From positions 20,458,197-20,522,196 of the forward strand of contig NC_135218.1 of NCBI RefSeq assembly GCF_052324685.1: a DNA stretch of 64,000 nucleotides, in the 5' to 3' direction. Origin of the DNA: Brachyhypopomus gauderio (taxonomy: Eukaryota > Chordata > Actinopteri > Gymnotiformes > Hypopomidae). A program made the translations under genes and the position numbers. Below, piece by piece: positions 16,201-47,686 of this stretch (positions are counted from its first letter, which is position 1; the number at the start of each line of letters is the position of its first letter). The notes beneath the pieces are model-generated. The model did not search any database, was not told where the DNA came from, and saw only the letters and a list, made by a program, of their open reading frames with translations.

Positions 16201-19200
16201 TCAAATTATGGAAATAATACTAAAAGAAAAGCTATAATCCCATCTGTGTTGGAGGAAGTACTAAAGCTGCAGCAGAACATTAAGATGCAGGAGATCTTGG
16301 AGGCTGCACCACCACAGGCCAAGTCGGTCCAGAATGGTGGTGATGAGCAATGGCAGGAGGTTGCCCAGCTCCGACAGAAACTCCACAAACAGGTCAGAGT
16401 CCATGAATGGGAACAAATGCGCTTATGACCTGTTGTGTACAGAACATTTTAAAAACATTTTTAACATAACAAAAAAAATATTTTTAATGCTTTTCAGGAG
16501 ATGAAGTGGGTTGCAAAAATGCAAAGAATGAAGGAGGAGCATGAGAGCGAGAATAAGCAGGTACGTTCCAGTGCGAGAATAGGCACGTATGTTCCAGAGT
16601 GAGAATAGGCACGTATGTTCCAGAGTGAGAATAGGCACGCATGTTCCAGAGCGAGAATAAGCACGCATGTTCCAGAGTGAGAGTAGGCACACATGTTCCA
16701 GAGGGAGAGTAGGCACGCAGGTTCCAGAGGGAGAATAAACACATATGTTTCAGAGTGAGAATAGGCACGCATGTTCCAGTGCGAGAATAAGCACGCATGT
16801 TCCAGAGTGAGAATAGGCACGCATGTTCCAGGGCGAGAATAGGCACACATGTTCCAGAGTGAGAATAGGCACGCATGTTCCAGGGCGAGAATAGGCACGC
16901 ATGTTCCAGAGTGAGAATAGGCACGCATGTTCCAGGGCGAGAATAGGCACACATGTTCCAGAGTGAGAATAGGCACACATGTTCCAGTGCGAGAATAAGC
17001 ACGCATGTTCCAGAGTGAGAATAGGCACGCATGTTCCAGGGCGAGAATAGGCACACATGTTCCAGAGTGAGAATAGGCACGCATGTTCCAGGGCGAGAAT
17101 AGGCACGCATGTTCCAGAGTGAGAATAGGCACGCATGTTCCAGAGTGAGAATAGGCACGTATGTTCCAGAGTGAGAATAGGCACGTATGTTCCAGAGCGA
17201 GAATAGGCACGCATGTTCCAGAGCGAGAGTAGGCACACATGTTCCAGAGCGAGAATAGGCACACATGTTCCAGAGCGAGAGTAGGCACGCATGTTCCAGA
17301 GCGAGAGTAGGCACGCATGTTCCAGAGCGAGAATAGGCACGCATGTTCCAGAGCGAGAGTAGGCACGCATGTTCCAGAGCGAGAATAGGCACGCATGTTC
17401 CAGAGCGAGAATAGGCACGCATGTTCCAGAGCGAGAGTAGGCACGCATGTTCCAGAGCGAGAATAGGCACGCATGTTCCAGAGCGAGAGTAGGCACGCAT
17501 GTTCCAGAGCGAGAATAGGCACGCATGTTCCAGAGCGAGAATAGGCACGCATGTTCCAGAGCGAGAATAGGCACGCATGTTCCAGAGTGAGAATAGGCAC
17601 GCATGTTCCAGAGCGAGAATAGGCACGCATGTTCTAGAGCGAGAATAGGCACGCATGTTCCAGAGCGAGAGTAGGCACACATGTTCTAGAGTGAGAATAG
17701 GCACGCATGTTCCAGAGCGAGAATAGGCACGCATGTTCTAGAGCGAGAATAGGCACGCATGTTCCAGAGCGAGAATAGGCACGCATGTTCCAGAGCGAGA
17801 ATAGGCACGCATGTTCCAGAGCGAGAATAGGCACGCATGTTCCAGAGCGAGAATAGGCACGCATGTTCCAGAGCGAGAATAGGCACGCATGTTCCAGAGC
17901 GAGAATAGGCACGCATGTTCTAGAGCGAGAATAGGCACGCATGTTCCAGAGCGAGAGTAGGCACACATGTTCTAGAGTGAGAATAGGCACGCATGTTCCA
18001 GAGGGAGAATAGGCAGGTACATTTGCTGTTCAGGCTGGCTCTGATTCAGTGTTCCTCTACAGTCTTAATATCTTATTCCTTAACACCCAAACGTGCTTTG
18101 TGTGTTCTTGGCTCAGCTCCAGACTGCTCTGGCCCAGACACGCTCCTCCATGTCCGAAGGGAAGGAAGAGACATGGAGGCAGGTGAAAGAGTTGCAGCTC
18201 CAGCTACAGGAGCAGCAGCAGATCATCGCCTCCCAGAGCAAGCAGGTCAGCACTGCAGAGCAAAGCAGGAAGTCTGAGGCTTGTTCAGGATTTCCTGTAT
18301 TGGCCTAGCTGCCTGTCTACAGCCTGCTTTTCGGGAAGAGAGCGTGTTCTGGATCTAATCGAACACAAGTTCTCCAGAGACTAATTTAGAGACATGTGAT
18401 GTGAAATAGGAAGTGTCAGTTCTTGAAAAGGAAGACTGCTAAAACAATGTTTTTCTTTTCTGTTGACTTGCACATTCCTATATTTTCATTGCTTTCACAT
18501 ACTTGATCTCATGAAAAGCTGTGTAATTAATTCAGTTGTGTTAAAACAGGGAAGAATAATTAAATATTTATTCTTTTAATTAGCAACTCCTAAACATGTA
18601 TAATGAATTTTGTTTGCTTTACAGATTAAACAGATCACTTCAAGTCCTCCTACTCTAGTAGTGCAGCGTGAAGGTATCATTTTATTTTATACTATGTGTA
18701 TTTATATATTTAATATTGCTATTATTTTACAGCTTTAAATAACAATTTTCTCTTTTTTTATGTCAGCACCAGACCCTAAACCCAAGGTGGTGCTCAGTGG
18801 TATGTCATGACACAGTTCTGTAAAAACTGTTATTTTCCACTTTTGTTTGTCTACTATAGTCAATGGAGATACTGAATTAGTGTTGTCTATCCCTGCCTTC
18901 TATACAGTAGATAACTATGAATTACTATTCAGACATAAGACCTACAATTCAGACCATTAACAGTGGCAATGCACTTAATTTAGCCATGTTAGTCAGTGTG
19001 TCTGTACTTTCACTAATATTGGTATTAACTGTATGTTATTTCATTTTTTAAAATAAGTGAAACCTTTTTGCTTGCTCAAATCCCCAAAATAAACAACTAA
19101 AATGTAAGCTAAATATAGATGACCAAGAACTATGTGTTACTCAATAACAGTGCAATAGTAGCCCAAAACCTGCAGATTATTCAAAAAGATCTAAAAAGCA

Positions 19201-25200: not shown

Positions 25201-27326
25201 AGCCAGTGTAAGAACTTAAGAATGGGTTGATATGATCACTTATTTTGCTCCTAGTGAGAACTCTAGCAGCTGCATTTGGAATCAGCTGTAACTGTTTGAT
25301 TGTCTTTCTTGGGAGTCCTATTAGGAGGCCATTACAGTTATGAACCCCGCTAGAGACAAAAGCATGTTCTCAAGATCTGCCTTTGTCAAGAAATATCTGA
25401 TCTCATTGATATTCTTAAGATGATATGATGCTGACTTGGTTACTGATTTCATGTGGCTGCTAAAACTGAGATCAGAATCTATTAATACGCCTAGGTTACG
25501 AGCTAACTCCCTACGGTTTATAACCAAATATAATAATCTCTGTTTTATCTTTGTTCAGCTGTAGAAAGTTTTTTGACTCATCTAGTTAGTGATGTGCTCA
25601 AGGCACTTGCAGAGAGAGTTACAGGGACTGTAGTTGTCATGTGAAAATGCAAAGTACTGTAGATCTGAGTGTCATCTGCGTAGCTGTGGTACGACAGCCC
25701 AGAGTCTAGTTTGATCTGTCCAAGTGGAAGCATGTATAAATAAAATAGGAGTGGCCCATGAATCAAACCTTGTGGAACACCACAAGTCACTGGCACTATT
25801 TCAGAAATCTTATTTGCAATATCAACAAAATAATTTGTGCCTTGCAGATAAGAACTGAACCATTTTAGGAATGTTCTTGAGAGACCAACCCATTTCTCTA
25901 GTCTATCTATAAGAATGTTATGGTCTACAGTATCAAAGACTGCACTAAGGTCAAGCAGTACTAAAACAGACAGCTTCCCTGAATTTGTGTTCAAACGAAT
26001 GTCACTAATTACCTTAATTAGAGCAGTTTCAGTACTGTGAGCAGGTTGAAAACCTGACTGAAATTTGTCTAGGCAGCCACTTGCAGATAGAAAAACAGAG
26101 AGTTGCTTGAAGATTATTTTCCCAATAAATGGTAGATTTGAGATGGGCCTGTTATTACTTAGCACAGTTGCCTCCAAATTTTTCTTTTCTAACAGAGGTT
26201 TCACCACAGCAGTTTTCAGTGCATTAGGAAAAACACCCGATAGGAGTGAAGTGTTTACTATCTGAAGTCATCTGCTATTGAGTGAAATACATTCTGCAGT
26301 AGCATTTCCCAATGGTGCTCTCTGTTCACCTGAAATAGTTTTAGCTTTGAGTTGAGTAATTTCATCCATAACACTAACAATGTTTGAGTTGAAATTGTTC
26401 AACAAATAATCAACAGATCCAGATGATTCATATGGTGCCGTGCTCATTTTGCTTGTGAAAAGTGTAGCGGTTCTGTCTTTGATAAACCTCTTCCTATAAT
26501 TGACATGCCGAATCATCCGTTCTGCTGAGGCCCATGTATCAAAGAACACACAGTAATGAATAAAAGCTGTAGCTGATAAAGCTACATCTTTAACAGAGGC
26601 TGATATGTTGAGATCTTTTGAAATAACCAAGTCCAGAGTGTGACCATGACAGTGCGTACTCCCAGCTACATGCTGAATGAGCCCAAATGAGTCTAGTATA
26701 GCACAGAGCTCCTTGGTGTAACTGTCCTTCAGACTGTCTATGTATATGTAAAAATCCCCAGCAATTATAAAATGGTTGAAATCTTTGGAAATGAGAGATA
26801 GCAAATCTGAAAATTCACAAGTAAAATCTGCATTGTACCTTGGAGGCCTATAGACCATCACTAGTAATATTTGTGGAATGCCAGTCAGAACTACACAGAG
26901 ATACTCAAAGGATGTCAAATAAACAAATGCATTGATAGGACCATTAAATAAAGCAGCTATATCTCCACCTTTACCAATGGCTCGAGAGACATTTAAGAAT
27001 TTGAAGTTTGGTGGTGCTGATTCAATTCATACAGTTGTGGAAGTGCATTCATTTAACTATTTTTCAGTTAAAACATAAAATCAAGCCAAAAGGCAAAACT
27101 CAGACATGTGTGAGAATTCTATTTGTGTATTGTTGCCAAGTCTCAGTTGTCATACCTGTTAAGAGGTACTCCACAACATTCAGTTATTAGTTTTCAAGAA
27201 AATTGTGTGTGTGGGTGTGTGTGTGTGTGTGTGTGTGTTTCAGGTCTCAATGATGCAGGGACAGGCAGCACTCTGAAGAGCAGTATTGTGACAGTTAGTG
27301 ACTGGGATGACTCGGATGACATATAA
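13248..27326 (+). CDS. DZIP1 (iguana), zinc-finger coiled-coil ciliary/Hedgehog protein
   Basis: Rebuilt from 18 coding exons: 13248-13250, 13513-14127, 15375-15459, 15556-15692, 15899-16057, 16255-16392, 16498-16560, 18117-18245, 18625-18673, 18767-18799, 19292-19354, 19745-19896, 19974-20160, 20593-20749, 20912-21297, 22321-22460, 23030-23198, 27244-27326. These total 2748 nt, 915 residues, with all phases consistent. Exon 1 contributes only the ATG; exon 2 continues PFYNNIYYP, the start known for fish DZIP1. The conserved N-terminal domain is followed by one C2H2 finger (C207, C210, H223, H228), a Gln/Glu/Lys-rich coiled coil at about 235-450, an acidic [15 protein letters not shown] region, [12 protein letters not shown], and the C-terminus [11 protein letters not shown]. 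Known role: basal-body/transition-zone assembly and Hedgehog (Gli) regulation. The exon 4 end (donor GTTGGG) and the exon 6 acceptor are the weakest boundaries. Confidence 0.95.
14544..14557. promoter_or_regulatory. Perfect X-box palindrome in dzip1 intron 2
   Basis: GTTGCCAGGGCAAC fits the RFX X-box arrangement exactly: GTTGCC, two bases, then its inverse GGCAAC. It lies in dzip1 intron 2, about 1.3 kb after the ATG. Regulation of dzip1 by RFX is inferred from this motif and the ciliary role of the protein. Confidence 0.5.
15119..15132. promoter_or_regulatory. Second X-box in dzip1 intron 2
   Basis: GTTTCCATGGCAAC matches the X-box consensus at 13 of 14 positions. It lies 575 bp downstream of the perfect copy and about 240 bp before exon 3. 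Confidence 0.45.
16545..18020. repeat. 26-bp minisatellite, about 57 copies, filling dzip1 intron 7
   Basis: Head-to-tail units of 26 bp with core GAGCGAGAATAGGCACG followed by CATGTTCCA. Variants (GAGTAGG, GTGAGAAT, GGGCGAG, CACGTATG) form runs and higher-order alternation, as around 16800-17100. The first unit is the 3' end of dzip1 exon 7 plus its donor: exon sequence GAGCGAGAATAAGCAG, then GTACGTTCCAG. The last unit again ends CAG-GTAC (18014-18020). Most copies carry CACGCATGT where the true donor has CAGGTACGT. Because 26 is not a multiple of 3 and the minus strand lacks stops in the unit, long open frames of 310-416 codons appear there; these are artefacts. Confidence 0.95.
21298..22320. 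other. dzip1 intron 15, no recognised content
   Basis: About 1 kb of A/T-rich intron between exon 15 and exon 16. No repeat or internal gene recognised. Confidence 0.5.
24503..24830. repeat. Two fish retroelement-tail fragments in dzip1 intron 17
   Basis: TTTATTTGTATAGCACCTTT...CTCAAAGTGCTTTACAG (24508-24560) and a second copy, TTTATTTATATAGCACCTTT...TCAAAGTGCTTTACAC (24746-24800), are two tandem-oriented copies of a tail shared by many teleost SINE/LINE elements. A-rich DNA follows to about 25060. The earlier part of the intron (23199-24500) shows nothing recognisable. Confidence 0.65.
25060..27000 (-). mobile_element. Degenerate L2/CR1-type LINE, antisense in dzip1 intron 17
   Basis: On the minus strand, an apurinic-endonuclease-like segment (26268-26918; [27 protein letters not shown]) is followed by a reverse transcriptase segment (25578-26207; [71 protein letters not shown]). 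Then come [20 protein letters not shown] (25321-25527) and a decayed C-terminal part to about 25060. The YADD catalytic motif is still present, but frameshifts and stops separate the pieces, so it is inactive. It lies antisense to dzip1. Assignment to the L2 rather than another non-LTR clade is by motif flavour only. Confidence 0.85.
27202..27240 (+). repeat. (TG)n tract abutting the last dzip1 splice acceptor
   Basis: TGTGTGTGTGGG(TG)n runs directly into TTTCAG at 27238-27243, so the pyrimidine tract of the final dzip1 acceptor is a TG microsatellite plus three T's. See findings for the possible effect on splicing. Confidence 0.85.
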
Positions 27327-28374: not shown

Positions 28375-31300
28375 TCACACATATGAATCAATGTTCAGAG
28401 ACACAGGTACTCTGGCTGTCCTGTTAGTGTAAGTTCTCTGTGTGTTTTGTGTCCTGGTTCTTTTGCTGTCCCTGCCCGACTCTAATAAGGGGGACATGAT
28501 GACTGTGGTGTGTTTGGAGGAGGCAGGTATCCTGTATGTTCCTCTGGTCCGAGCTGTTATGGAGCTGTCTTTGGATGGACTTCTCATGTAAACATATGAC
28601 CATTGTTGGCTTTTATTTGAACTGAAAAAAAGATTGGCAGAGTGGAATTATGAAAAATATTCTTCAAGGAGGTTTAATCTTAGAGTCATCAAGATCAATG
28701 ATTTTAAGATAATTAAAAATTACACAGGTCAACAGCATTTTTGGGGCCAAAGATATTTCAACGAATTTAGGGTAACTTTGGGGTGCTGATTCTGAATATG
28801 TCATCAGTTTTGCCAGATTGGCTCAAGTTTTTGAGATTTTTCGTGAAATGTGTAAAAAAAACACTATGTGTGGTGCCCAAGCATATCAAGCATAACCCCA
28901 AAATAGGCCAAATACACTTTTTTTATGAAGTCTGTTATGTTTCTTCTATGTTTTTGCAGTGTATATTCACCACAAATGTAACAGAATGTGTCTGGATCGT
29001 TATTACAACTTCTTCTTGTGCTATAAATGCTATATGCTAATGCTATATAAGTGCTATAAATAAGATACCAAAAATCTCAAAAACTTGAGCCAATCTGGCA
29101 AAACTGATAGCATATTCAGAATCAGCACCCCAAAAATACCCCAAATTCATTAAAATATTTTGGGCACCAGTAAATTTTATTTTTTTTGTTGACCTGTGTT
29201 ATCTTTGCTTATTCTGTAAAATACTGTAGATATTAGAGTGCAGTGATCAGGGCCTTACTTTGAGCAGAGTCCCTGTCTCACAGATAAATAACACATAACG
29301 GCACTTCCAACTATGATCAGGGATGACCCTCCCCAGCCTACAAACACAGCCGCACCTATTTCAAATCTGAAGAGTTAACACAATAGTAAATTGCTGTAAA
29401 TAAAATGTTATTTTTACAATGTCCAGTTCAGAATGGTGTTAAAAGCAAAGCAATCAACTTGTCTAATGTTTAACACATGTGACACATAATCATTAAAATA
29501 GACCAACAGGCAAAATCATATGTAGCAATTACTTACTTTTGTGCCATGTAGTTTTGATCCACAAATTGTGAACGTGTTCTTTGTCCCCACATAGAATAGA
29601 CTATCATACCACTGAATCCTGTGGCACAAAGAGTGGCATCAGTGGCATCAGTGTGCTCATTTCATGCCAAGGTGAGAAATAAGAATGAAAACATGTCCCA
29701 CCTGATGCCATGTAGGTGAGAGCAGCTGCAAATGTCACCCGAGCATTGGCCAGTTCAGAGCCCCCAATCTTGGTGCACTTCATTCCGATCAAGGCGAGCA
29801 CGGCTCCCCAAAACCCCAGGATTACAGAGACCACAGCCAGTGCACGGCACACATGCAAGAAAACTTAAGAGAGTGTAGTGCTTAATAAACCATGGCCCTC
29901 ACTGCCATTTTTCTAAATATCATCTTTACTAATTAACCCTTAGATGCATAAGTGGGGTCAAAAATGACCCCAGGGGGTTTTATTCTTCAAAATCTCTGAG
30001 AGTAAATTTTTTTAAACTTCCATATTCCAGGTAGTCCTCATAAAACTTGTTTGTGACTTGAGGCCATTTGAATTTTTTTGTTTGTTTTTATACATTTTAT
30101 GAAATTGCAGTTTTTGTGTCACTACCCCAGTCTTCCATAAGTGGGGTAAAAAATGACCCCAAGTATTTCGTACAGAATCTCAAGGCTTTGCTTTGGGAAC
30201 TTTTGATTTTTAGCAACTGTGACTGTCAGGATACAATTTTTGTCCCTCTTACACATCTGATGCCTGCATTCTCACCACCAGGAGGTCACAGCAGCATACA
30301 TGTAAGTATCTGTCCTATTGTATAACACGTAATTTTGTAATAACAGTGTAATAACACGATTCGTCCTTGGGGTCAATCTGACCCCAGGGATATTTACCTC
30401 CAGAAAAAGATTTACAGAACATTGTTGACGAAGTATGAAAGGATGAAGACAACATGAAAATCCACCCATTTGTGAAACATGTCAAACATGAAATAGTTCT
30501 ACTGTGGGAATTATCAAAGTATATCAACAAAATATATCAACTTAGCTCTTATCAACTGCACCTGCAGGTGTGGTCATGTTAGATCACACACACTGATAGA
30601 CAAGTTTTAAGCTTGGGGTCAAATTGACCCGAGGATAACCAATGCGTGCAATATGTGTTCAGCACATTGAAAAAATATTTTCATGACAATTTTATGCTTT
30701 ATCACTTGTCCCCATCAAATTAGGAATTGTCATGAAATATGAAGCAAAAGAAAAAAAGTCAACTACTATTTTTTTGAATGATAAACATTCAGTGGGGTCA
30801 AATTGACCCCAAGGACGATAGGAGGGGTATTATCTTCATTTATCAACTTCATGCCTTTTCCGTCATAGAGTTACATGTTGGTCAGCAAAGTAGACAGGTA
30901 TTTAACTAGCTAACTACAAAATAAGGTTAGTAGTAATGTTAGTACTGTGTTAGCTGTGTGTGTGTGTGCGGGCGCACATGCATATCTATGCTTTTACTTA
31001 TAAATGCACAGACATTTACTTAGATAGCTACATATTGATTTATTGTTTTGTGTGTCATTGTTTTTGTTTGTCAAACATTGTCTGTTTTATATTTTCTCAT
31101 CTAGACTATCATGGCTACTCAGAGGTCTGCTAGGATACCCGGAGACCTTTCTGGAGATCTGATCCTGAACGGATGGGATCAAGAGCCCATCGGTGGGATT
31201 GACTCAGAATCTGACATCTCAGATGTAGAGGATCCAGAATATTTGTTTTGTTGAACCAAATATAATAAATATAATCACCTTTAACCAAAACTAAAAGCAT

Positions 31301-31686
31301 TTTTTAAAATTTGTTGCAAAAACACATTGATTCTAATTGGGGTCATTTTTGACCCCACTCATGGAAGAGTGTATGTATTTTCGCTTATGCATCTAAGGGC
31401 TACCACAGTCATAATTTTTAATGAATAGCTTGGAGTAAGACATTAAAAAACCCTTACCTGGTAGACCCATCATAGAGGCGTAGTACTTGCAGTCTGATGC
31501 ACCAGTGGTGTCAGATACGCAGTCCATCCATAGGTTGGAGAAAAAGTTAATCGTGGTGAGAACATCCTGGTTCACCTCTGAGAAATTCCAGTATTCAGTG
31601 GCCAGAGTTGAACAATTCAAGATCCAGCCATAGAGACAACACACAAAGCAGCCGATCTCCAAATACATCACCACTGTGTGATTCAT
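28375..31686 (-). CDS. Claudin-10-like protein, copy 1
   Basis: Five coding exons on the minus strand, in order: 31686-31458 (229 nt), 29863-29702 (162), 29618-29537 (82), 29366-29259 (108), 28621-28375 (247). They total 828 nt, 275 residues. Claudin features: four membrane spans, and a first extracellular loop with W..NLW..C......C (EYWNF, FFSNLWMDCVSDTTGASDC). Exon 2 reads VCRALAVVSVILGFWGAVLA followed by GMKCTKIGGS; span four is FEIGAAVFVGWGGSSLIIVG. The tail is long and basic, ending DSYV, a PDZ-binding C-terminus like the AYV of claudin-10. Exon 2 and exon 4 lengths equal those I recall for human CLDN10. Role by family: tight-junction paracellular ion pore. Exon 4 could also be read through to a TAA just past its donor, giving a short-tailed form. 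Intron 1 is almost entirely a transposon. Confidence 0.88.
28722..29199. mobile_element. Foldback MITE in intron 4 of claudin copy 1
   Basis: Begins ACACAGGTCAAC and ends with its inverse GTTGACCTGTGT. The arms are about 115 bp and closely matched, for example TTGCCAGATTGGCTCAAGTT on the left and its inverse at about 29087-29106. The centre is A/T-rich and non-coding. It occupies most of the intron between exons 5 and 4. Confidence 0.85.
29937..31399. mobile_element. Non-autonomous piggyBac-like element inside claudin copy 1
   Basis: The termini are CCCTTAGATGCATAAG and its inverse CTTATGCATCTAAGGG. The left flank is TTAA (29933-29936), the piggyBac target; the right flank has decayed to CTAC. 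Inside, 31111-31254 on the plus strand encodes a short acidic peptide with SESDISDVEDPEY, like the N-terminus of piggyBac transposases; the rest of the enzyme is missing. Six copies of a GGGGTCA/TGACCCC palindrome are spread along the element, at 29953, 30142 (one half mutated), 30368, 30614, 30793 and 31338. Palindromes also sit next to both ends, so they may be transposase-binding sites. Confidence 0.75.
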
Positions 31687-33081
31687 GTTGCTGGCTTTGT
31701 AGTGAAGGGTTTACAAACTTATTAAAACATTATAAAGATAATAAAATGTCAGACAAAAGAAATCTATGGATTCTGTCACCAGTGCTGAAGTCAGTACAAA
31801 ATAGAAGAATATGGTAGTATCTGAGGCCTGAAACCTAGTAACTTTCAGTGGTCTTGAACCGTAAGCACTTTCTTATCCTTCAAGGTGTATCCAGCTGTCA
31901 CTGAGCTGGACATTCTGGTGGGGGCGGTCTCTAATTACTGCTGCACTCAGTGCTACATTTACTGTACTGAAAGAAAATCACCCTTATTGCACAGATCTAC
32001 CATAAGGGCTAGAGCAGAGATGACAATTCTCCCTCCCCTTTCCCAGGGCTTCAGTTCTGTAAACAAAACCAGTAGAAATGCTGAACATGCATAACAAGAT
32101 TCAGAACATGGAGTTATCCTGCTGGGTCTCTCTCCATCAATAGCCCTACGGTTAGGCTTACCCTAACCCTAGGTGCAGCCAGGAAACAGAACTTTCCAGA
32201 ATGTCTTCTAATTCTGCTGCCTGTGCGGGTGACGTGTGCATAATCAGCAAGTATAAGATGACGTGTGCCTGAGTGCACTCTAATGAGAAACCCAAGAACC
32301 ACAGCCACAGCACACCTTACATCATTACATCAGTCAACAACTGGGCTGGGTTAGGGAATATAGTAAACTGTCCTGTTGTCCTCCACCAATGTGCATGTAA
32401 AATGTCACTATTCTAAAATGTTTCTGAGTGAACATGTATTGTGAAATGTGTGAAATACTGAATTGACACACAACTATTAATACAGTTATTCTAACTACTA
32501 ATACATAATAGTGTCTCTACTGAATGATTGTAACCATTAATACAATGAATAAACACAAGTAGGTTGAACAAATTTTACATTTTAAATTCTATATTCAAGG
32601 GTTCATTTAAGACTACTAGGATTAGGGTTAGCAATGGATTTGAAGTTGTACTGGATCTTATGGATCACCAATACCACTGATTTAGTTTTTTCAGTCCAAT
32701 CCCAAGTGATACCAAAGATATCATAATACCAATACTGACTTTCTTGTAAACATATAATTTTTGTGCACATGAAAAAAATGGGAACGTTTTCATTTTCATA
32801 TTTGAAAGGCTTTGCAATAGTATTAAATAACTTCCCAAAAGCTTTTCTGTTTGCATCTTATTAAGATGTTATCTGTTTGGAATGAGAAGATAAAATGTGA
32901 TAATGAAGGTATTTTTTGTTCCCTTGTGTCTAGTTGCAAAGTACAGTATGCTTACAATTATTGTGATGCTTGATTTACCTGTGTCTTATTATAGATTCAA
33001 AAAAAAAAAAAAGAAATTGGTTGGTAATGTCAGTATTGGCCACAACAAGTCGCTAGATGTCAATAACTGTATTAACCCAAG
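31687..33081. other. Upstream region of claudin copy 1, with a segment repeated at 39.2 kb
   Basis: No gene seen. Positions about 32565-32870 are clearly similar to 39215-39521 plus 39838-39865 (shared TACTGGATCTTATGGATCA and AATACTGACTTTCTTGTAAA). This copy lacks the LTR insertion present in the other. A short poly-A run lies at 33000-33012. Confidence 0.55.
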
Positions 33082-33378
33082 TGTGACGGTGAGGCGGCTC
33101 CCTACCAGCCGTCTCTGTCCACAGCGGCTGTTGTTGTTATTGTCTGGTGACGTCATGTGCGTCCCTCAGGTGGGCGGAGCCCGTGATCCGTCTCACCTGA
33201 GGGTCGTTTGTTTGCCTATATATGTCTTGTCTTTGTACCAGTTGACCGCTGGTCATTATATCCTTAATTTGGATCTATTGCACGGGTTTTAGGTTTGCAC
33301 ACTTTCTATTAAACCATCCTTTTTCCCTGAGACTTGGCGTGATCGCTTCCTTTTGGTTCGCACACCCTGCCCGTCACA
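33082..33378 (+). repeat. 5' LTR
   Basis: 297 bp, TG...CA ends. It differs from the 3' LTR by a few substitutions and small indels (for example the GTTGTTGTTATTG tract), consistent with a moderately recent insertion. Confidence 0.9.
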
Positions 33379-34100
33379 GAATGACCAGCCACCCTTCGGA
33401 AGCCGCCGAGTCTCTTTTACTTTCTCCTTCGTTCGTGGTCATGTCTCGTGGTAAGTGTTTGTCTACGTGGTGTTTTGTTTGAAGAGCTCCGCCGTGCTTT
33501 TGTGTTTTGTGTGTGTGTGTGTGTATGTGTGTAGCACGGCGAGGACCAGGGCAGTCTGCCCTGGGAAAGCCCTTCGTGTCCGTTGTGTGTTGAGAGAGTT
33601 CCGCCGTGCGTTTGTTTGTGTGTGGCCGGTGAGGACCAGGGTGTCTGCCTGGGAAAACTCTCGTGTGTGTGTGTGTAAGTGTGTACGGGTAACGGACCGG
33701 AGGATCAGTGTGCGTTCGCGTCGTTATGTGTTTAGTGTTTAATGTGTGTGACGCGGTCGCCGCTCGTCACGGTCGCCTCGCTCCCCGTGTATCTTGTGTT
33801 TAATGTGGGGAGCGACTGCGACTCTGAGCGGCGCGTCACTATTGTGTTTATGTAGAGCACGCACGTTTTGAACCCGTTCGTTTACTGTTTGTACACCGTT
33901 TTTTGTTTGTCTAGTATTTGCGTGTGTGTTTTGTCCTAGCGTGTTTAATGTTTACATGTAATTCCACGCATGCTCCTCCCCTTAAATGTGTGTTTGGGGG
34001 GGGGACCGGCTGTGGTCCCGTGCCATGGGGTGTGGCACGGAGGGCGTCTCTCCCAAGGGAGGCCCTGAATAGGGTAAGGCGCGTTTGTGTTTCCTGTTTG

Positions 34101-34140
<40 letters not shown>

Positions 34141-34892
34141 TGTGTTCTTTGTGCAGGTGCTTCTCCTTGGCAGTGTTCCTGGACCTTGTGGGGGTCTCCA
34201 CCTGGCAGGAGCCCCCTTGTGTTGTGGGGTGACCGGAGCCCGCTCATGAAGAGCCCCTCCCTAGAGGGCTGGGGCCCCCGGATGTTTGGGGACCATGGGG
34301 CTCCGGTCTGAAAAGCTCCTGCTGGGGATGGAGATCCTCCCTCCTGCCCGGGGTGACCAGGAAGCCCTTGGGGCTGCTCCCTAGCCCGCGTCGGGGGTGC
34401 TCTGGGCCTCGGTCTCTGGCGCTCCTGGGTTGGGTGGAGGAGTCCACCTTGAGATGAGAGGCCCCGGGAGGGGTTGGCTCCCCAGGAGGCTGGGGTGACC
34501 CCTAGCAGAAGGCAGGGGTCAGCTCTGGGAGGAGGTAGGTCCAGGAGGTGAAGTAGCTACGCCTTGGGGAGGTAGCCTGCACACCCACACACACGAGGGA
34601 CGAGAGAGGAGCCGTAGCCCCTCGTCCCCACACCCATGGGGCTTACCAGCTGAATGCCGGTTAGGGCGTGAGGGCCCTGTGACCGACTGGGGCGTGGTTT
34701 TGTGTTGTTAACGGCCCGGTCGGTCCAGGGTCCCGCCCGGGGAGGCGAGTTGAGTAATGTTTTATGTTTCAGCTCCCGGACGGCAGGAGGCGTGTTCCTG
34801 CTTGTCTCTGCCTTCCTGCCCCTTCATGTTTTGTGTGCAGCCGCTGTGTGCCACACACCCAGTGGAGGGGAGTGCGGCTTGGTGGGGGGGTC

Positions 34893-35186
34893 TGTGACGG
34901 TGAGGCGGCCCCCTACCAGCCGTCTCTGTCCACAGCGGCGGCTGTTATTGTCTGGTGACGTCATGTGCGTCCCTCAGGTGGGCGGAGCCCGTGATCCGTC
35001 TCACCTGAGGGTTGTTTGTTTGCCTATATATGTCTTGTCTTTGTACCAGTTGACCGCTGGTCATTATATCCTTAATTTGGATCTATTGCACGGGTTTTAG
35101 GTTTGCACACTTTCTATTAAACCATCCTTTTTCCCTGAGACTTGGCGTGATCGCTTCCTTTTGGTTCGCACACCCTGCCCGTCACA
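34893..35186 (+). repeat. 3' LTR
   Basis: 294 bp, TG...CA ends, followed directly by the CCAAG target duplication. Confidence 0.9.
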
Positions 35187-35449
35187 CCAAGGAATTCACT
35201 TGTTATTATATTTGTTATTATAATCTGCCCAAAAATGAAAAGAACCCTTAAATCACAAAGGGGATCTTGAACAAAAGATTCAAGATTCAAGGTTCAAAGA
35301 TATTTACAAATAGAAATTGCATACTTTATAGAGAACAAAATAGCAACGGTCAATGGAAACCATAATCATCACTACATTGAGGACTGAATTCAAAATCACA
35401 TGAAAAATCAAAGTTAAAACTGAAATCACAGGCTGATCCAATTAGCATG

Positions 35450-36290
35450 AATTTCATCCTGGCGACTCATAATGTGACTCAGACATGGCTCAGGGCATCA
35501 GTGACGACCTGTACAGGTTGTGGCACTACTTGGCAACATCCAGTCTATTGCCATGTAACATCCCACAGGTTCTCGAATGGACTCTGTCAGAACAACAAGG
35601 AGGGCATTCTCTAGCACCAAAAAGAACCCAGGGACCACAATAACAGTGTAAGGTTTGACAATGGCCTAACAACAGTAAGGTTACTGTTAGCTATCATGTG
35701 GAGGTTCGTGCAGTGAAGGATATGCTTCCAGAAACCATCACTCACCCACCCCCAAACCTTGCTGTATGTTGATGCAGGCAGCATAATGTTCACCAGGGCA
35801 TCTCCTGACTCATTCATTTCTCACATGTGCTCATTGTGAACCTGCTCTCGTCTGTGAAGAAAGTTCTTGTCTGTGCCAATGGCAGACCTGCTAGATCTGG
35901 TGTTAGAGTGCTGGTCGAGCTGGGCTGTGAGCAGTGGTCCCACTAGAGGACACTGGACTTTCGTTACTCATGGAGTCTGTTTCTGGCAGTTTTGTGAAAA
36001 CTACCAACGGTGCCAAGGACACAACCAAAAAGCAAAGCTAGAGTACTATAGAGAAGAATCAGTCTGGAGTGTAACTGTGTATGGGCACCCCCTGCAAAAG
36101 CATTCCCTTTCTGGGAGTTGTCTTGCTGTTACCAATCTAATGCGCCTGCTGTCACTTTAATTTGTACCAAAGTCTGTGAAATTTCTTCACAATTGCTTAT
36201 GCTTCTTAACTGGACAAATCCTTCCCCTATAGTATAATTGACTTGGTGTTGCACTGTGATTAATAATGTTTGATTGTAGTATATTAGAGC
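35450..36290 (-). mobile_element. Degenerate Tc1-like DNA transposon fragment
   Basis: The sequence, including CATGGAGTCTGTTTCTG and ATAATTGACTTGGTGTTGCA, resembles a very common teleost Tc1-type repeat whose transposase lies on this strand. I see no usable reading frame. The family call rests on remembered similarity, not a search. Confidence 0.4.
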
Positions 36291-36324
36291 ATGTAGTTAT
36301 ATTGAGTATTGTATAACAATTTTA

Positions 36325-37320
36325 TGTACATCAAAGTCAAATTTATTTATATAGCACTTTTTACAATCATATGGGTCCAGATCCCTAATGAACAAGCTAG
36401 AAGCAACAATGGCAAGGAAAAACTCCCTAAGATGGCAGGGATTAGGAAGAAACTTTGGGAAGACCAAGACTCAAAAGTGAACCCATCCTCCATTGGACAG
36501 ACCACTAGTAGAAGTCTGTATTTATAGTTCAAATATAGTTCTATAGTTATAGTTCTGATTCCAGGCAGAGTAGTCACAGTGCCTTCAATGCAGATGATGA
36601 GCCTCAGGTAGGAGTTGGCATCAGCATGTCCTCTTGCTGCAATGGCACATACAACCACAGCATCGGCACATCCACTGAAAAGCCAGACCATCTCCTAGGT
36701 GCTTGTATGGAATTGTCTTTGGCAAAAGCATGCAACCAAGATATAAAATACAGGTTGAGTATGTGAACATCAATTTAGACAACCATTGATTTAAACATAC
36801 ATACATAGCTCATGTGCCAGTGATTAGCATGTGTCTCTTGCAAGTTTATCTATAGCAGCATAACTAAAGGGAGGGGTTCAGAAGTGACCACAGTCATGAG
36901 GGCTCACTCAATCATTGCTTTCCACCCAAGTCATTGTCACAACTAGATTCATCACATGACATTGCTGGATGACAGCATCAACATCTCAGATTACCAGAAG
37001 ACTCAACGTCTGGGCCCCCCTGAGCTCCACACATTCACATGTAGAATATTAACTGAAGACTTGACTAAATAGGTAAGTCTTAGGTCTAGATTTAAAGATT
37101 GGAACTGTGTCAGAATCTCAGATTGGAGCTGAAAGGCTATTCCTTAACTGAGGGGCTTTAAAAGAGAAAGCTCTGCCTCTGGCTGTAGTATTAGACATTT
37201 TTGGAACTAAGAGAAATCCTACATTTTTGGAGCACAGAAGGCAAGATGCGTTATAGTATGCAATGAGTTCATTCAGATATTGTGGAGCAAGAACATTTAA
37301 CATATAGCGGGTACACTGGT
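36325..37320 (+). repeat. Dispersed fish repeat, copy B (longest copy)
   Basis: Begins AAATTTATTTATATAGCACT and contains the GGCAAGGAAAAACTCCCTAA and AGGAAGAAACTTTGGGAAGA blocks shared with copies A and C. It then continues into a segment with CACAGTCATGAGGGC and CATCTCAGATT that is also in copy C, plus a further unit (37080-37320) with AGCTCTGCCTCTGGCTGTAG. Non-coding. Confidence 0.7.
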
Positions 37321-38911
37321 TATTTATGAATTATGAAACGGGGCACCATACTGATTGGTCAGGAACCAATATTTTGATAACAGGAACAGGTGGAATATTG
37401 TTGAATCAGTCTCACAACTGATGCATAATAAGGCATATGTGAAAAGATTTGGCCCAAGAATGGAACTAAACCTACTGTATATGTAAGTCTACTAATCTAA
37501 GCAAGGATAGAATAATAAACAATAAAGGAAAGAAAATTAAACAACAATAAAGAATAATAAACAACTGTTGATGTCTTTTAACTGGATGCTCAGCCGGTGT
37601 ATCACTGATGGCAAACCTGTTTCATTCGAACCGCAACAAGGGCTCTAATGCCGGAGCCGGGGGCTTGTTAACTATGGCTGTGGCAACCGGGCCTGCTACA
37701 CTAGATGTCGCCGACTCTCTAGGACATTCTGGAGCCCGGATGCGCTCCTCTAAATGTGAAATCTTCTCTGTCAGGCTAATGTTCAGTCAATGAGTTTTCT
37801 TTATTTTCATGACTAGTTACGTTGTAGATTCTCACTGAAGGCATCAAAACTATGAATGAACACATGTGGAGTCATGTACTCAGACATGATGAATTACTTA
37901 GCTTAGTTGAACTTAGATGTTTTTGAAGGTGGAAAAGGTCTTTCGACGGCTCGTGGAATGTTGCTGGTATCGGAGTTATGTGTAGATATATCCAAAATTT
38001 TTAAGATTTTCAAAATGAATAAGTAACTCGTTTAGCAGTATGGCATACAGTGGCATTCGCGAGAAAATGGTTAGAAAACCAGAAGCCAATGACATAGTAA
38101 TTCACCTAACTAATTTGAGATAGGTTGCACTAAGTAACTTGTTGCATTTTACATTAAATGCTGCTCACCAATATCAGAAAAAAAACGTGCTACACTATGT
38201 AGAAAGTTATCCAAAGTAAGAAAAAATGTTAAGGTTCAGCTCCACATGGAGTGTTTTGCATCTTGAATTAAATATATTTTAAATATTTTAATTTAAATAT
38301 ATTTAGTTCTAATTACCTGGAAGTGATGGACAGTCAAAGCACTATTTATAACTCTTTTAACTACCACCATGCAGCATGTCCCAAAACGTAGTAAAACAGA
38401 AGTTCTCAGACTATAGGATGATCTTTACATGAGCAGCTTCTCATTACCAGAAGTGGATGTGGTCATCATTTTTGTCAGTTTCAATATCCTGATCTCTGCT
38501 TGCTTAACTCAGTGATTCTTTTGAAGGTATAAATCAATATTTAGACATTTAGGGTAAGTTTAGGTTACAAGCAAAATTCATCATCTTTGCCAAGATTTAC
38601 ACAGTTTACATTTTTTTAATAAATGTTTCATTTGAATTAACACAATGGTGAATACAGTAAGAAATCTAACAAATTAGACAAGACTAGATTTAACAGACAA
38701 ACAAAACAACTCTTAATAACTAAACAGCTGGTGAATGATAAGACATGATAAGTGAAATCTAAGAAACCAGGTCATTCTACGTTGGAGAATCTAAACTCTG
38801 TCTCTTGAAGTTCATATTGACAGTATAAGATGTTGTGCTCTGCATCCCTCATCAGCTGGACCCAAAGGAAGTCTAAGAATGGGAAGAAGGCTGTGTTAAA
38901 GTGCAGTCCTG
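37321..38911. other. Gene-free stretch downstream of claudin copy 2
   Basis: No gene seen. Positions about 37580-37790 are G/C-richer and may be an element fragment. An A/T palindrome-like run lies at about 38265-38305. The right part probably contains the 3' UTR of claudin copy 2. Confidence 0.45.
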
Positions 38912-41607
38912 TCATCTCCCTGAGTTCCGGTCTTGAGGAGTATTAGGTTTGGAAGGACACTGGGTGTCATGTGAGATTTTGGAAGACTGCTTTACAGAGA
39001 GATCCGACACAGTGGACACTTTGGACATGGTGGAAAGCTCAGAGACACTGGAGAAATTTGTAGGAGTAGGGTGCAAGGCTGAACCTTCTTCAGCAGAAAT
39101 CACTGGATCTTGGTTACTGAGGAGATATTTTATTAAACACAATTAAAATCACATTTTCATACAAGTAAGTGAGGTTAATAGTCTTTCAATTATGTATTAG
39201 AGGGTCACAGACACAAACTTTACATTTTGAATTCTATATTCAAGAATTTGCTTAAGACTACTACAACTACAAATTTGTTTCATTAGTTGTGTAAGGGGCA
39301 ATGGATGTACTGGAATTGTACTGGATCTTATGGATCATCAATATCACTAATTTAATTTTTCAGTCCAATCCCAATTGATACAGAGGCTATTATCATAATA
39401 CCAATACTGACTTTCTTGTAAACATATATTTGTTTTGTTCACATGAAAAGCGGGAATCTTTGCAACTTCTTCATATTTGAAAGAGTTAGCAGTAGTGTTA
39501 AATAACCTCCCAAAGCTTTTTGTGATGCGAGGTGGTAGGCAGGATGACGGGACAAGCGTACGTTTTAAACAGCACTTTATTTCACACAAACATCAGAGCA
39601 CCTAATGTAGCGAGACTCAAACAAAGATGAGTAATAATCACAACATCAACACATGAAATACCTTAACATAAATAAGAACCAATTGCAATGCATAGCGTTG
39701 ACATCACAAGCCATAGGTCGGATGAACGCATGCACATAGTACCACCACACCAAAAGGAAATATATATATGGACATAAACAGACTCAGACCACAGATACAC
39801 ACACCTGAGGGGAGGGGCCAGGGGTGGTACCATGACACTTTTCTGTTTGCGTCTTATTAAGAGCAATTATAAAAATGTTAAATGCTTTAGAAATGTTTGA
39901 TTATTGTTGTTACTCTTAAATAATTAAGTGTTGTAATGAAATACAAATATCAGAAATCCTAAAATGACAACTAAATATAACTTTTAGGTCATTTAATGTA
40001 GCTTAATGTGTTACATTATATATGAGAATGGAAATTTACAATAGCTTAATCTTAAATCCAGTTGAGTCAATGTATGTATATGTATAGGAGAGCGTAGAGG
40101 TTGACACTTTTAATTCCTTCTCCATGCAGGAACAGCAAGATATCATACATTGTTTTAAATCTCTTAAGATTGAAACTGAAGTAACTTTATTGGCGATCTA
40201 TGGTGATTTTGAACTTCATATAGTAGTCTGAATAAACTACAAATACAATGACATGGTCCAGCCCCTGACTCAACCCCGGGCGTGTCTGTGTGTGTATCTA
40301 TTCATCTAGGTCTATGTATGTACTTCCGTTTGTGTTTTGCTCTGTGTGTCTGTTATTTGTTTCATCTGTTCATGGTGTTAATGTTATGTGTCACCCTTGT
40401 TGCTGTTGTTTGTGTTTTTGTAGTGCTTATGCACTATTTTGCGATGTTGCTAAAATAAATATTTGCTTTAACGTTGCAGTCGTCTCGGCTTCCTGCCTTC
40501 ACCCACTAAATGTTACTCACAAGTCTAAAAAGTAACTTGTCAAATAAATGAACAAAATTATTATATTTTTTACAGTTTCATGTCCCTGACGGGGACAGTC
40601 AAGTTACTATGGTATTTTTAGATGTAAACTCACGTGCTCTCCTTCAGTAACCAGGGCTTATTTAAAGAAACCAGGTAGAAGAGACCTCCGCTGACTTGAA
40701 ATAAACATCCAACCCATCCAAGGAACAGTGGTGTACCCAAATCGAACCTGGGAATAAAGTAATAGAAAACTCACAGTAATCCTATCTTACTGAACATTTG
40801 AAAGTAGCACATTAACAGATGTTTTATATTGGCTCTGGTGTCCTTAAATTCCCAAGCAACAGTACTTACTTCAGTTCAAAACTTGGATTGAAGTATTCTC
40901 CATACACATGCCAAGCATACACAATGTAACCTGATGCAGCCAACAAACCTTACACACATGACAGGGAAAAGCAAAAAGGTTGCTCATTTCACTTGAATAT
41001 TATGGTGTAAATGTATAATATGCACAAGTTAAATTAATAAATAACTTTAATACCACTGGTGATGTGACAGAGACCTCCAAAGAAGACTTTTCTGTTCTTG
41101 CTCTTCTTTTTGCCTCCAATATAAGTGCATTCCATCCCCACCATGTTGAGAATAAACCCCAGCTTTCCAATCGCCAGGCCACTCATTAGCAGTCCCCTTA
41201 CGATCTGGATATGATCTGTGCACAAAAGTTTGTCACCTTGCATCAGTGTGATTGTAAATGGCTTTGAACACAGCACAGTCATATTAGGTAGGGAAACCAT
41301 TCTTCATTTCAAATGGGAAAAGTGTAAAGCGCAACAGAAATGATCAACAACAGCTATTATTGTACTCACACTCAACAGACCAGAGGATGGGGAAGTCGTA
41401 GCAGGTAGAGACATTGTTGGAGAGAGTGGAGCAGGACCTCCACAAGCTGGACCAGTACCATGCCACGATCATCACGGCACTGCCACCCTGGCCGCCAGTA
41501 GCAGCCACCTTCCACCCCTCCATGGCTAATGAACAGGCAATAAAGATCCAGCCCAGGGCAGACAGGAGGAAGCCCCAAATCTGCATGACACGGATGTTCA
41601 TCTTCAA
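38912..41607 (-). CDS. Claudin-10-like protein, copy 2
   Basis: Five coding exons on the minus strand: 41607-41370 (238 nt), 41215-41054 (162), 40948-40870 (79), 40747-40634 (114), 39116-38912 (205). They total 798 nt, 265 residues, all phases consistent. The first loop keeps the claudin W..LW..C...C pattern (EGWKVAA, YWSSLWRSC, STCYDFP). Exon 2 reads YHIQIVRGLLMSGLAIGKLG, then VGMECTYIGG. Exon 3 has GYIVYAWHVYGEYFNPSFEL and exon 4 KFDLGTPLFLGWVG. The tail is Ser/Thr-rich and ends NSGR, so the usual C-terminal PDZ-binding YV is absent. Copy 2 is the most diverged; several internal ATGs near the start (41601, 41586) are alternatives. Intron 4 holds two LTR-like insertions, so a different last exon cannot be excluded. 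Role inferred: tight-junction claudin. Confidence 0.85.
39215..39865. repeat. Segment paralogous to 32565-32870, split by a solo LTR
   Basis: Matches the segment upstream of claudin copy 1 over about 300 bp on the left of the LTR and resumes directly after it with CTTTTCTGTTTGCGTCTTAT. It lies in intron 4 of claudin copy 2. Either a dispersed element or a relic of the claudin tandem duplication. Confidence 0.7.
39522..39837 (-). mobile_element. Solo LTR with 5-bp target duplication
   Basis: 316 bp, TGTGATGCG...CCATGACA, flanked by CTTTT on both sides (39517-39521 and 39838-39842). Read on the minus strand it starts TGTCATGGTACC and carries AATAAA near its far end, like the other LTRs in this window. 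The paralogous copy at 32.8 kb has the uninterrupted site. Confidence 0.88.
40249..40545 (+). repeat. LTR-like repeat in intron 4 of claudin copy 2
   Basis: TGACATGGTCCAGCCCCTGA, G/T-rich body, AATAAATATT near 40454, then CTTCCTGCC. This is the same layout as the solo LTR just to its left but on the plus strand. I could not find a target duplication, so the right end is uncertain. Confidence 0.5.
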
Positions 41608-43930
41608 CTTCCAGCTTTAACTTCCAGTGCCTGGAAAGTCCACGCCTTTAATGCTTCTTGCTGGTCAATAACCCTTTAAATAACACACTCTCTCCTTGAA
41701 TCTCTCTATTCATCTGTTTAAATTTTCCATTTTTGGCTGTGTTTACTGTAGTCCATACGGTTATCTACTTCTTGGCATGTCATTGACTGTTCCAGTAGTT
41801 TCTAAATTGTGACTTGGTGAAAATGCCTCTTCACAGTACTTTTTGGCTCGTCTTCAAAAAGTAGAGCACAGAACTGTCTCAATGGCAGCTCTTCTCCTGG
41901 CTGTCAGTGAGAGCTTGTACAAGTATACATTCCCAGAGTTGTCTGATGACGTGTGTGAGAAGAGGAATTGTAGTGAGAGTGCTTACCTAGACAGGTAGCT
42001 CAAATTTCTACTCAAATTTCACATATCATTGTTTTAAAAGATCCTTGTGTTTAAAACCTTTTAAGCAAAGAGATAAAATTCTTTTGTGATGTAATCTTAA
42101 GTGTTCAAGCAAAAGAGGAAAAAAGAAAGAAAGAAAAGCGATGTTGTCATCATCTAGTAATTTGTGTACAGTTTTTCATTTTTTATATAAAAAAATAAAT
42201 GTAAAATAAAAAATATATATTTCTGACTGTCATAAAAGATCACATGTGGACCAACTGAAACACAGGTCAGTAAATTCTGATTAGTTCTGATTATGTTCTT
42301 TAGAAATTATGCAAATTTCTGAAAGAAACAAAGAATACAGTGCTAGAGTTTTATTCTAAAGTTTTTATTCTAAGTTTTATTCTAAGAACTACTCTTCCTA
42401 TTCACAGAAGCAAAACAACATTACATTGATATTAAAAAGTCAAAGCTTTGAAAATCCTTTGACAAACCCAATGAGTACATTTTTACATCAAATATGCAGT
42501 TTATGCTTTCTGTACACCACTCCCAAACACCACTATCACATTCTGCAATAAACATTTGTATACATAAACCTGGTAAGATACTTTTGATAATAGTATCGGC
42601 CTAAGACCACATTGCCTGACTCTGAAATCAGAAATCAGGCACTTTGCTGATTTGAAGAGCTGGATTTCATAACTTTATTGTTTTGAAACCTCTAATTAAG
42701 GCATTGCATGAAAGGGCCTCAGTATATTGTAGTAATGACTTACAATTACAGGTTCTTACAATAAACTACACCAAGGCTATGGAGCGTCCTAATGGTCAGC
42801 CCCACAGTTAGGGACCGCTAGAACAGATCAATACTTTACCTTTTATAAATTTGACACATATAGATTTGTTATGAGGAACTGCATGTATACACACATATTT
42901 AATTACATATGTATTCCATTAAGGAAAAGGTGGTGTTTAAATGTACAATAATTTTCCTTTTTTGGCTATACCTCTCAATCTGTTTGTGGCAAGGGATTCA
43001 AAGTCTGATCCTGGATTGTCCAATTGCCAATTGATCAGCTCAGATACACCTACTAAGCCTGTACGTTGCTGACTTTCCCATCACAGCATTACAGTGTTTC
43101 ATTAATATTAGTAAATATAGTACTGTGGTGTCAATCCCTGGTCTAAGGGTCAGAGCCCAGTGTGGTTTGGTGATCTGCTTAATGGCACCTGGTTCCACTC
43201 ATGAATCTGCACCTAGTTTGAAAAGGCATTATGGAGCAGGGCAAGCACATGGCTGTATTCTAGTTCTCCATGATTTTACCAGTTATTTACTGGGAAAAAA
43301 TAATGAAGATGCTAAACTAGTGGGATCATATTTCTAGTGAGTTTAATTATATTTTATTGTCATGAATGGCATTTTTTTGAGAAATGATCTTTTAAAACAT
43401 AACCATGTTCAAACTACAAACAAGTAAATCTTCAGCTTTTAACAGATAAATAGCTTATAATAGATCTATTTTAGCAGTATGCTACTACAGAGAGTTTGAA
43501 CACCAACCTTTGAACAACCGGCAAGTTTACAGAAATAAAGATTATATAAGGAAATACCATACCAAATATATTTTTGTTTTGAATTTTTAAAGAGCAACGC
43601 TGAAATAGCCAATGCTTGTTGTTATGGAAACACCTGGCTGCAGCATGATGTTTGAGGTCCACACAAGCTCCAGCCTGCACAAGAACCTCACATGCAGGTC
43701 AAGGTCTAGGGTTTCCAGTGATCACAAGGTGGAGACAGACGTTTGGGCCCAGAGAACAGGTGACTTCCGATCTGACTTCCTCATCCAGACAGCATGTTCC
43801 ATTGACGGAGCACAGTCCCAACTATGATCTTTCAAAACAAAGCTTAAAAACTAACAAAAAAACAAATAAACTTAAATAGACCAGACCTGACACCTTATGC
43901 ATGATTGTATGAAAGGAAATAACTGAATAT
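41608..43930. other. Gene-free stretch between claudin copies 2 and 3
   Basis: No gene seen. On the minus strand a TTATTTAAAGG sequence near 41675-41685 is a possible TATA element for copy 2. The rest is A/T-rich and unrecognised. Confidence 0.45.
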
Positions 43931-45040
43931 TGTAACGCTTCTGTTGTGGACTTGGGTAAAGTAGGACACAAACGCGTAGAGACCAGGGTTGCATTTGCAG
44001 TAGACTGTATATTTAATTTAGAATCCAAAGACAGATGACCAATTGACAAACTCCCGACACGGTGACGAGACCGACGAGGCATTCTGGACAGACCATGAAA
44101 CACTGGGATTACATCACCTCACTAATACCTCAATATAACAATATTAAGACAGAACAATGACATCTCTTAACATGGTGACTTAATGAACGAGGCAGTACAT
44201 AATGCATGTAACATGGCCAGTAACACTCTTTACGTGACGACTAGATCACCGACAGTACATAACACATGCAACCTGGGCAGTAACACTCTTTACGTGACGA
44301 CTAGATCACCGACAGTACATAACACATGCAACCTGGGCAGTAACACTCTTTACGTGACGACTAGATCACCGAGGCATTTAAATAAACCACATAACATTAT
44401 GGGCAGTAACAACTCTTTAAACGGTGACCAGATCAACAAGACATTAGAAACAACCACGTCAGTAGTCTTTGATAATTCGTGTGTGAAAGGGAGTAAATGC
44501 CTAGATTTAGAAAAGACAAACGAAACTAAGTATTCAGCTACATAGGACTTTGACCACGTAACTCAAAATTAGAACACACGCGGACATGAACCTTAATATA
44601 AAAACATTGACAGACAGGGAAATCAAAAGAACAAACACGGACAACGACCAAAACTAACAGGGTTGCGAACTAGAAGAACAACGTTTCCCCAAAGGCAACG
44701 GCCAACCCCGAAGGAGACAAATACACGATAACCATAACAACATAACTTGTAATAACCAAAGACAGAACAGACTGATAAAGACTAAAACGAAGACTAAAGT
44801 GAATCGACTAAAATCTAGAGCACTGACAGACGGCACTGGACAACCTGGAAACGCGGAGGGCATGAAACAATGATCGCCAAAGACCGTGTCCTAACTAAGG
44901 ATTTAAATACCCACTTATTTAAACAACAATGAGGTACAGGTGAGACCCATAATACCAAGGGCTGGAACAAGGCGGTGCAAAACACTAAAACCGGCGAATA
45001 AACGTAAGTAAATGAGGGGGGGGCGGAGTAACGCGTTACA
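43931..45040 (-). mobile_element. Long solo-LTR-like element with 5-bp target duplication
   Basis: The ends TGTAACGC and GCGTTACA are flanked by AATAT on both sides (43926-43930 and 45041-45045). The interior shows no long meaningful frame. In minus orientation there is a TATTTAAAT box near the start, fitting an LTR promoter. At 1110 bp it is long for an LTR, so a deleted composite element is an alternative. A 60-bp tandem repeat lies inside. Confidence 0.65.
44189..44373. repeat. 60-bp tandem repeat, three copies
   Basis: Period exactly 60 bp; the copies starting around 44221, 44281 and 44341 share AACACTCTTTACGTGACGAC without change, and the first copy is slightly diverged. As 60 is a multiple of 3, it gives a repeating 20-residue open frame (44183-44545), which I regard as a by-product. 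Confidence 0.85.
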
Positions 45041-45325
45041 AATATGTAAAAACAAATCTGAGGTATTAAATGTAAGATGAGACTCATAGTACTTAGTGAA
45101 TTGCTATTGCTTTTAAAAAGTTTTTACCAATTTTTGGCATAGTACCATCCATTTGCTTTATTAACTAAAAATGGACTTTATCATTTATGTCCTATTGTTA
45201 ATGTCATGGGTTTCGAGATGTGAGGAATTTCCCTCATGTAGCCAGTACACAAACAGTATATGCCTCTTATTGGCTGCACAGTCATATCAGTGTTGGTCTC
45301 CATGGAGATGTCCTGTGGGAGTACA

Positions 45326-47472: not shown

Positions 47473-47686
47473 TGTTCTCCAATATTGATGAGTTCAAACA
47501 ATGACCCAAACTCAGGTCAACTGAGGTTAGCAGCCAATGATTAGATAAATGCTGGTCGAAACTGAATAGAGAAAACAGTAGCCAGAATTGCCTATGGTCT
47601 CTAGAAGTCAGGGTAACACTATGTCCAGTGTCTGATTCTGGAGAGGATGTTGTGGAATGGAGTTGTCTGGAACTGGGTCTCTCTGC

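Follow-up and report, generated by a model that had tools for sequence, protein, structure and literature searches.

A minisatellite that begins inside a coding exon, runs through its splice donor and fills most of the following intron raises two questions: whether the array grew out of that border, and whether its many donor-like copies disturb the splicing of the gene. We addressed both for an array in Brachyhypopomus gauderio, in a gene that is probably the fish copy of the cilia gene dzip1 and is called dzip1 below. The analysis covered a stretch of 64,000 nt (C8:20458197-20522196, hereafter the window), and genome-wide searches covered 796,539,105 bases in 840 contigs.

The dzip1 gene and its exon 7

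A model of exons 2-9 was built by hand, using the exon numbering of the sequence-only reading, an earlier annotation of the same DNA. The N-terminal part of the model matched Pfam Dzip-like_N (PF13815) over the whole profile (1-118) with an E-value of 3.7e-37, which supports the identification as dzip1 made in that reading. Dzip-like_N was the sole domain listed by Pfam at 0.001; a putative C2H2 finger and a downstream coiled coil, both dzip1 features, were read by eye in the translation. Using the protein against its own genome, six exon matches were obtained at E up to 0.001, all at the dzip1 locus. A search of solved structures gave no match at 0.01, and a protein scan of viral contigs gave 14 candidate stretches, none of which was confirmed. 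When exon 7 was joined to its neighbouring exons, the frame of the hand-built model stayed open throughout, and the proposed exon of 63 nt (21 codons) holds in that frame. Two borders of the model are uncertain, one at the 5' side of exon 6 and one at the donor of exon 4 (score -0.89), and exon 7 is independent of both. The features of the locus are as follows.

16498..16560, + strand: dzip1 exon 7, 63 nt, 21 codons; acceptor ttttcag|GAG, donor CAG|gtacgt; protein match C8:20474691-20474768
16544..16569, + strand: unit 1, final 17 nt of exon 7 and first 9 nt of intron 7; predicted working donor
16570..17999, + strand: units 2-56, 26-bp minisatellite with decayed donors
16778..17141, + strand: block duplication, units 10-15 repeated as units 18-23, 8-unit step
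17610..17999, + strand: block duplication, units 42-45 repeated as units 53-56, 11-unit step
18000..18023, + strand: unit 57 at the far end; relic donor CAG|GTACAT, cut site behind 18016
18017..18116, + strand: putative pre-expansion intron 7, 100 nt, from length and unit layout
18117..18245, + strand: dzip1 exon 8, from gene model and protein match

The array and its unit

At 16544-18015, Tandem Repeats Finder (TRF) detected one array, made of 56.6 copies of a 26-bp unit that match at 92% and show no indels; its score of 2468 is the highest of the 29 TRF rows in the window, followed by 325. When the array was cut from 16544, 57 units were obtained, the last of which matches to base 24 and ends at 18023. 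Both results agree with the array of about 57 copies that had been described, except that the unit string quoted there has 27 nt, one base more than the 26-bp unit. As a head-to-tail array of many 26-bp units, the element is a minisatellite (size range about 10-100 bp).

The unit had also been described as a copy of the end of exon 7 together with the start of intron 7, and this was borne out. Unit 1 joins the end of exon 7, AGAGCGAGAATAAGCAG, whose last base is 16560, to the opening bases of intron 7, GTACGTTCC. Of the 17 exon bases in this unit, 15 agree with the unit consensus, and the best match among 62,473 other window positions in the same register on the + strand was 12 of 17; using any of the 26 registers and both strands (124,946 positions), the best match was 14. 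The likeness stops abruptly on both sides, with 7 of 26 bases matching to the left of 16544 and 6 of 26 to the right of unit 57. Intron 7 is now 1556 nt long, and 100 nt lie between the far-end donor and exon 8. Judging from the two ends of the array as a guide to the state before it arose, these 100 nt would be the original length of intron 7.

Donor sites within the array

Donor sites were scored with an approximate matrix, so that all scores given here are rough, and their pairing with U1 was calculated. The exon 7 donor had the highest score (9.59) among the eight exon donors and unit 57, with a U1 pairing energy of -8.1 kcal/mol, and the far-end donor, 18016|GTACAT, scored 6.28 with -7.3 kcal/mol. 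The corresponding nonamers of the 55 inner units are CACGCATGT in 40 units, CACACATGT in nine, CACGTATGT in four, and CACATATGT and CACGCAGGT in one each. CAC|GCATGT, carried by 40 inner units, scored -1.46 (U1 +0.7 kcal/mol), and CAC|GTATGT, carried by four, scored 5.17 (U1 -2.1 kcal/mol). Two further kinds of site lie off-register: AGA|GTGAGA in 16 inner units (score 4.92, U1 -5.7 to -7.3 kcal/mol) and AGA|GTAGGC in 10 (score 3.15, U1 -5.5 kcal/mol). The AGA|GTGAGA sites differ from the consensus by a C-to-T change at a CpG and, given their U1 energies, are nearer to the true donor by pairing alone than by score. Neither these off-register sites nor a possible role of the far-end donor had been considered in the sequence-only reading.

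A donor within the unit was thus found as CAG|GTAC in units 1 and 57 and as GTATGT in four inner units. The locus had been called a field of decayed splice donors in which a few units still carry a usable GTATGT. The first part stands for the 51 of 55 inner units that lack GTATGT, but the second is weakened, since no inner site reached 5.5. As a serious threat to exon 7, the few GTATGT units do not hold up, with a score of 5.2 against 9.6 and a U1 energy of -2.1 against -8.1 kcal/mol.

When + strand sites between the two end donors were counted, none scored at least 5.5, and each of 42 other window blocks of equal length held at least one; at a threshold of 4.9, 20 sites were counted between the end donors, and the 42 blocks held at most 12. 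The array is rich in mediocre pseudo-donors and empty of good ones. This emptiness alone is unremarkable, since a repeat multiplies a single poor unit, and 37% of the shuffles of the consensus unit scored equally low or lower. Selection that silenced the inner donors was considered as a cause. It is weakly suggested by the clustering of changes in the donor described below (0.042 and 0.032), but is opposed by the 16 AGA|GTGAGA units and by the shuffles, and we did not adopt it. The same 16 units give no sign of continuing selection against donor-like sequence.

Predicted consequences for splicing

Exons 8-9 were linked to each of seven downstream donors, namely those of units 2, 3, 24, 25 and 57 and a pair of AGA|GTGAGA sites. 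All seven joins ran into a stop; counting the exon 7 start as 0, it falls at residue 34 for five of the donors and at residues 52 and 56 for the other two. Retention of intron 7 brings a TGA at 16600. Among the 98 GTs in 16562-18115, just one (16591, score -4.87) is in frame, adds 30 nt and stays open through exon 8. Among plausible donors, only the first therefore keeps Dzip1 whole, which would explain its intactness. Being much the strongest, the first donor should be the one in use, and the scores argue against use of the inner-unit donors in transcripts. Most likely, the array has no effect beyond a longer intron, and it is probably neutral.

The alternative that survives best is an effect on splicing, in which the far-end donor competes with the true donor by intron definition, or the off-register AGA|GTGAGA sites occasionally serve as donors, so that frame-broken mRNA would be made according to array length. 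The far-end donor is the sole site in intron 7 past the true donor that reaches 5.5 (6.28, U1 -7.3), its use would give an intron of 100 nt, equal to the proposed ancestral distance, and the 20 sites of at least 4.9 exceed the 12 at most in the 42 equal blocks. However, the true donor has both the best score (9.59) and the best U1 pairing, no inner site reaches 5.5, the scores come from an approximate matrix, and a 7-unit RNA fold is ordinary (z 0.51). We regard such an effect as unlikely. Its particular form as a length-tunable switch, in which the far-end donor, 100 nt before exon 8, competes with the donor of exon 7 at a distance of 1456 nt in the upstream direction, is a long shot. If such a switch existed, array length would determine what fraction of the dzip1 mRNA is frame-broken and, through it, the dose of Dzip1 between individuals. 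With the far-end donor in use, array length would act as a natural dial on a cilia gene; if it is not used, the array is a well-preserved, ordinary minisatellite.

The fold itself was compared with shuffles of the same seven units, 141 of 200 of which folded equally well or better, and an array of RNA hairpins was rejected on this basis.

Probable local origin and proposed history

When a 25-mer of the unit was searched in the 797-Mb genome with up to 2 mismatches, all 52 matches lay inside the dzip1 array (match counts for this 25-mer are lower bounds). Several loci, as expected of a dispersed satellite or mobile repeat, were not seen at up to 2 mismatches, and with zero matches beyond the array genome-wide, a foreign or dispersed repeat was rejected. 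The 16-mer of the exon end has three exact sites in the genome, namely the array and two isolated sites whose surroundings are unlike the window. Because the unit is confined to this locus, the repeat most likely arose locally, that is, its sequence distribution points to a birth at dzip1.

The two ends of the array carry further information on its origin. CAG|GTAC is kept by units 1 and 57 only, as had been noted for the final unit, which reads CAG|GTACAT, and CAC stands in all 55 inner units. Over 24 nt, 3 positions separate unit 1 from unit 57, and the inner units show 4-7 differences from unit 57 and 3-7 from unit 1. Since unit 5 ties with unit 57 at 3 of 24 in its distance to unit 1, the pairing of the end units depends on the donor sites. 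The end units agree at 21 of 24 sites, and the inner consensus departs from them at 3 of these, all within the 9-nt donor. The chance that all three departures fall in the donor is 0.042 when the agreeing sites are considered and 0.032 when all 26 sites are, as a post hoc test on a single locus. Taken together, the presence of the unit at one locus and of donors in both end units supports the proposal that the array grew from the border between exon 7 and intron 7.

A second alternative reverses the direction, such that an array from elsewhere, or one grown within the intron, overran the exon end by conversion and exon 7 acquired its 17 terminal nt from the repeat. The exon end and the array form one continuous repeat, which fits this alternative, and for that reason the sequence of a single species cannot alone give the direction. 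However, the genome search, which allowed up to 2 mismatches, showed the unit at no other locus, donors are present at both ends and absent from the inner units, and the frame of exon 7 is still open. We consider overrun by conversion very unlikely.

With good confidence, we favour a locally born intronic minisatellite that straddles the exon 7 border, with a history of duplication followed by amplification of a donor-weakened unit. First, a tandem duplication of about 26 bp that spanned the donor of exon 7 would have left one donor per copy. Second, the first donor would have been kept in use, and the second, being free to drift because only the first plausibly keeps the frame, would have been left to do so. 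Third, judging from the unit map, a copy in between may have changed at -1 (G to C) and +4 (C to T), and most units would later have changed at +2 (T to C). Slippage or unequal exchange, some of it duplicating whole multi-unit blocks, could then have amplified the weakened unit to the 55 inner copies, which would have stretched intron 7 from about 100 to 1556 nt. Last, and as is seen in the sequence, the inner units now differ chiefly through transitions. The locus would be a clear example of an intron that grew about 15-fold out of its own border with the exon retained, with the strong donor kept in front, weakened copies behind it and a single relic at the far end. In addition, the restriction of good donors to the two end units could be used as a search signature for border-born minisatellites in annotated genomes.

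Growth and variation inside the array

Units 10-15 return as units 18-23 and units 42-45 as units 53-56, which shows that blocks of several units were copied and that the array has changed in the past; variation in length from one individual to another is common, though not required, among minisatellites. Such ordered unit differences, within a contig of 27.6 Mb, leave an assembly artefact in the number or order of units barely credible, even though assembly can compress or inflate repeats. The first 24 inner units average 1.79 mismatches to the consensus and the last 31 average 0.65, and mismatches decrease along the inner units (Spearman -0.55, p 1.6e-5), so the 3' part of the array is the more uniform. 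Among the inner variants, 57 of 63 are transitions, and 26 of the 57 lie at the two CpGs of the unit, although this share does not equal a number of events because variants copied along with units are counted repeatedly. The observed/expected CpG ratio of the array is 0.88, compared with 0.39 for the remaining window.

The first four units (CAGGTACG, CACGTATG twice and CACGCATG) suggest a decay outward from the exon. Stepwise outward decay was nevertheless rejected, since the distance to unit 1 shows no significant trend along the whole array (Spearman -0.21, p 0.12) and the middle state returns in units 24-25. Open frames of 417, 379 and 311 aa cross the array on the minus strand (16487-17737). 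They were rejected as genes and arise because the 26-bp consensus, as read by eye, has no stop in any minus frame; frames of this kind could be mis-annotated as a gene.

For comparison, 20 stretches of 10 kb from the same contig (200,000 bases, including 9,223 N) were searched for arrays with a period of at least 10, at least 5 copies and a score of at least 500. Five array places were found in 3 of the 20 stretches, with a best score of 1848 against 2468 at dzip1; among the five, two consist of simple units rich in G/T or A/C, and one is truncated by the end of its stretch. Sizeable tandem arrays are thus common on this contig, and ones as large as the dzip1 array perhaps uncommon. In one sampled stretch (L035, 7914-8116), a 13/26-bp array has a unit with TCACGCCTGTTCC, which resembles the part CACGCATGTTCC of the dzip1 unit at 11 of 12 positions by eye. 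This likeness is probably due to chance.

Comparison with known systems

Among the matches listed in a literature search, a minisatellite in dzip1 was not found in titles or abstract openings. By its title, the report of Turri, Cuin and Porter (NAR 1995 23:1854) concerns a minisatellite that supplies splice donors in a transcribed gene. Like that element, as far as the title goes, the dzip1 array carries splice donor sequence in its repeats within a transcribed gene; unlike it, where by the title several donors serve the transcript, the donors of the 55 inner dzip1 units are lost or weakened. In potato RdRp, intron gain through a tandem duplication that crosses the boundary of exon and intron has been described (PMC4974935). 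In both genes the tandem duplication spans the border and doubles the splice signals, but a new intron was formed there, whereas the amplification in dzip1 extends an existing intron with no new one evident. The C. elegans minisatellite CeRep25B has 24 bases, is mostly intronic, lies close to alternative exons and shows a statistical link to alternative splicing (PMC4039745). The dzip1 array is likewise an intronic minisatellite of similar unit size (24 and 26 bases), but in contrast to that many-copy family it was found at a single locus, and the donor is part of its own sequence. The gene in which several repeat donors serve the transcript is reportedly the human interferon-induced 6-16 (IFI6/G1P3).

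Neighbouring features of the window

Several other features were observed in the window. On the minus strand at 29607-47493, exons of the claudin family stand in a row, and PMP22_Claudin was matched in 4 of 6 tested open frames, two of the four matches being slightly below the family cut-off; the arrangement suggests a tandem claudin cluster adjoining dzip1. A 60-bp unit is repeated three times at 44193-44372 (95% matches), within an open frame of 124 aa that has no Pfam match at 0.001. Also on the minus strand, 25581-27026 holds a remnant of an RVT_1 reverse transcriptase together with an endonuclease match below the cut-off and is LINE-like, and 2040-2357 holds a remnant of a DDE_Tnp_1_7 transposase, presumably piggyBac-like.
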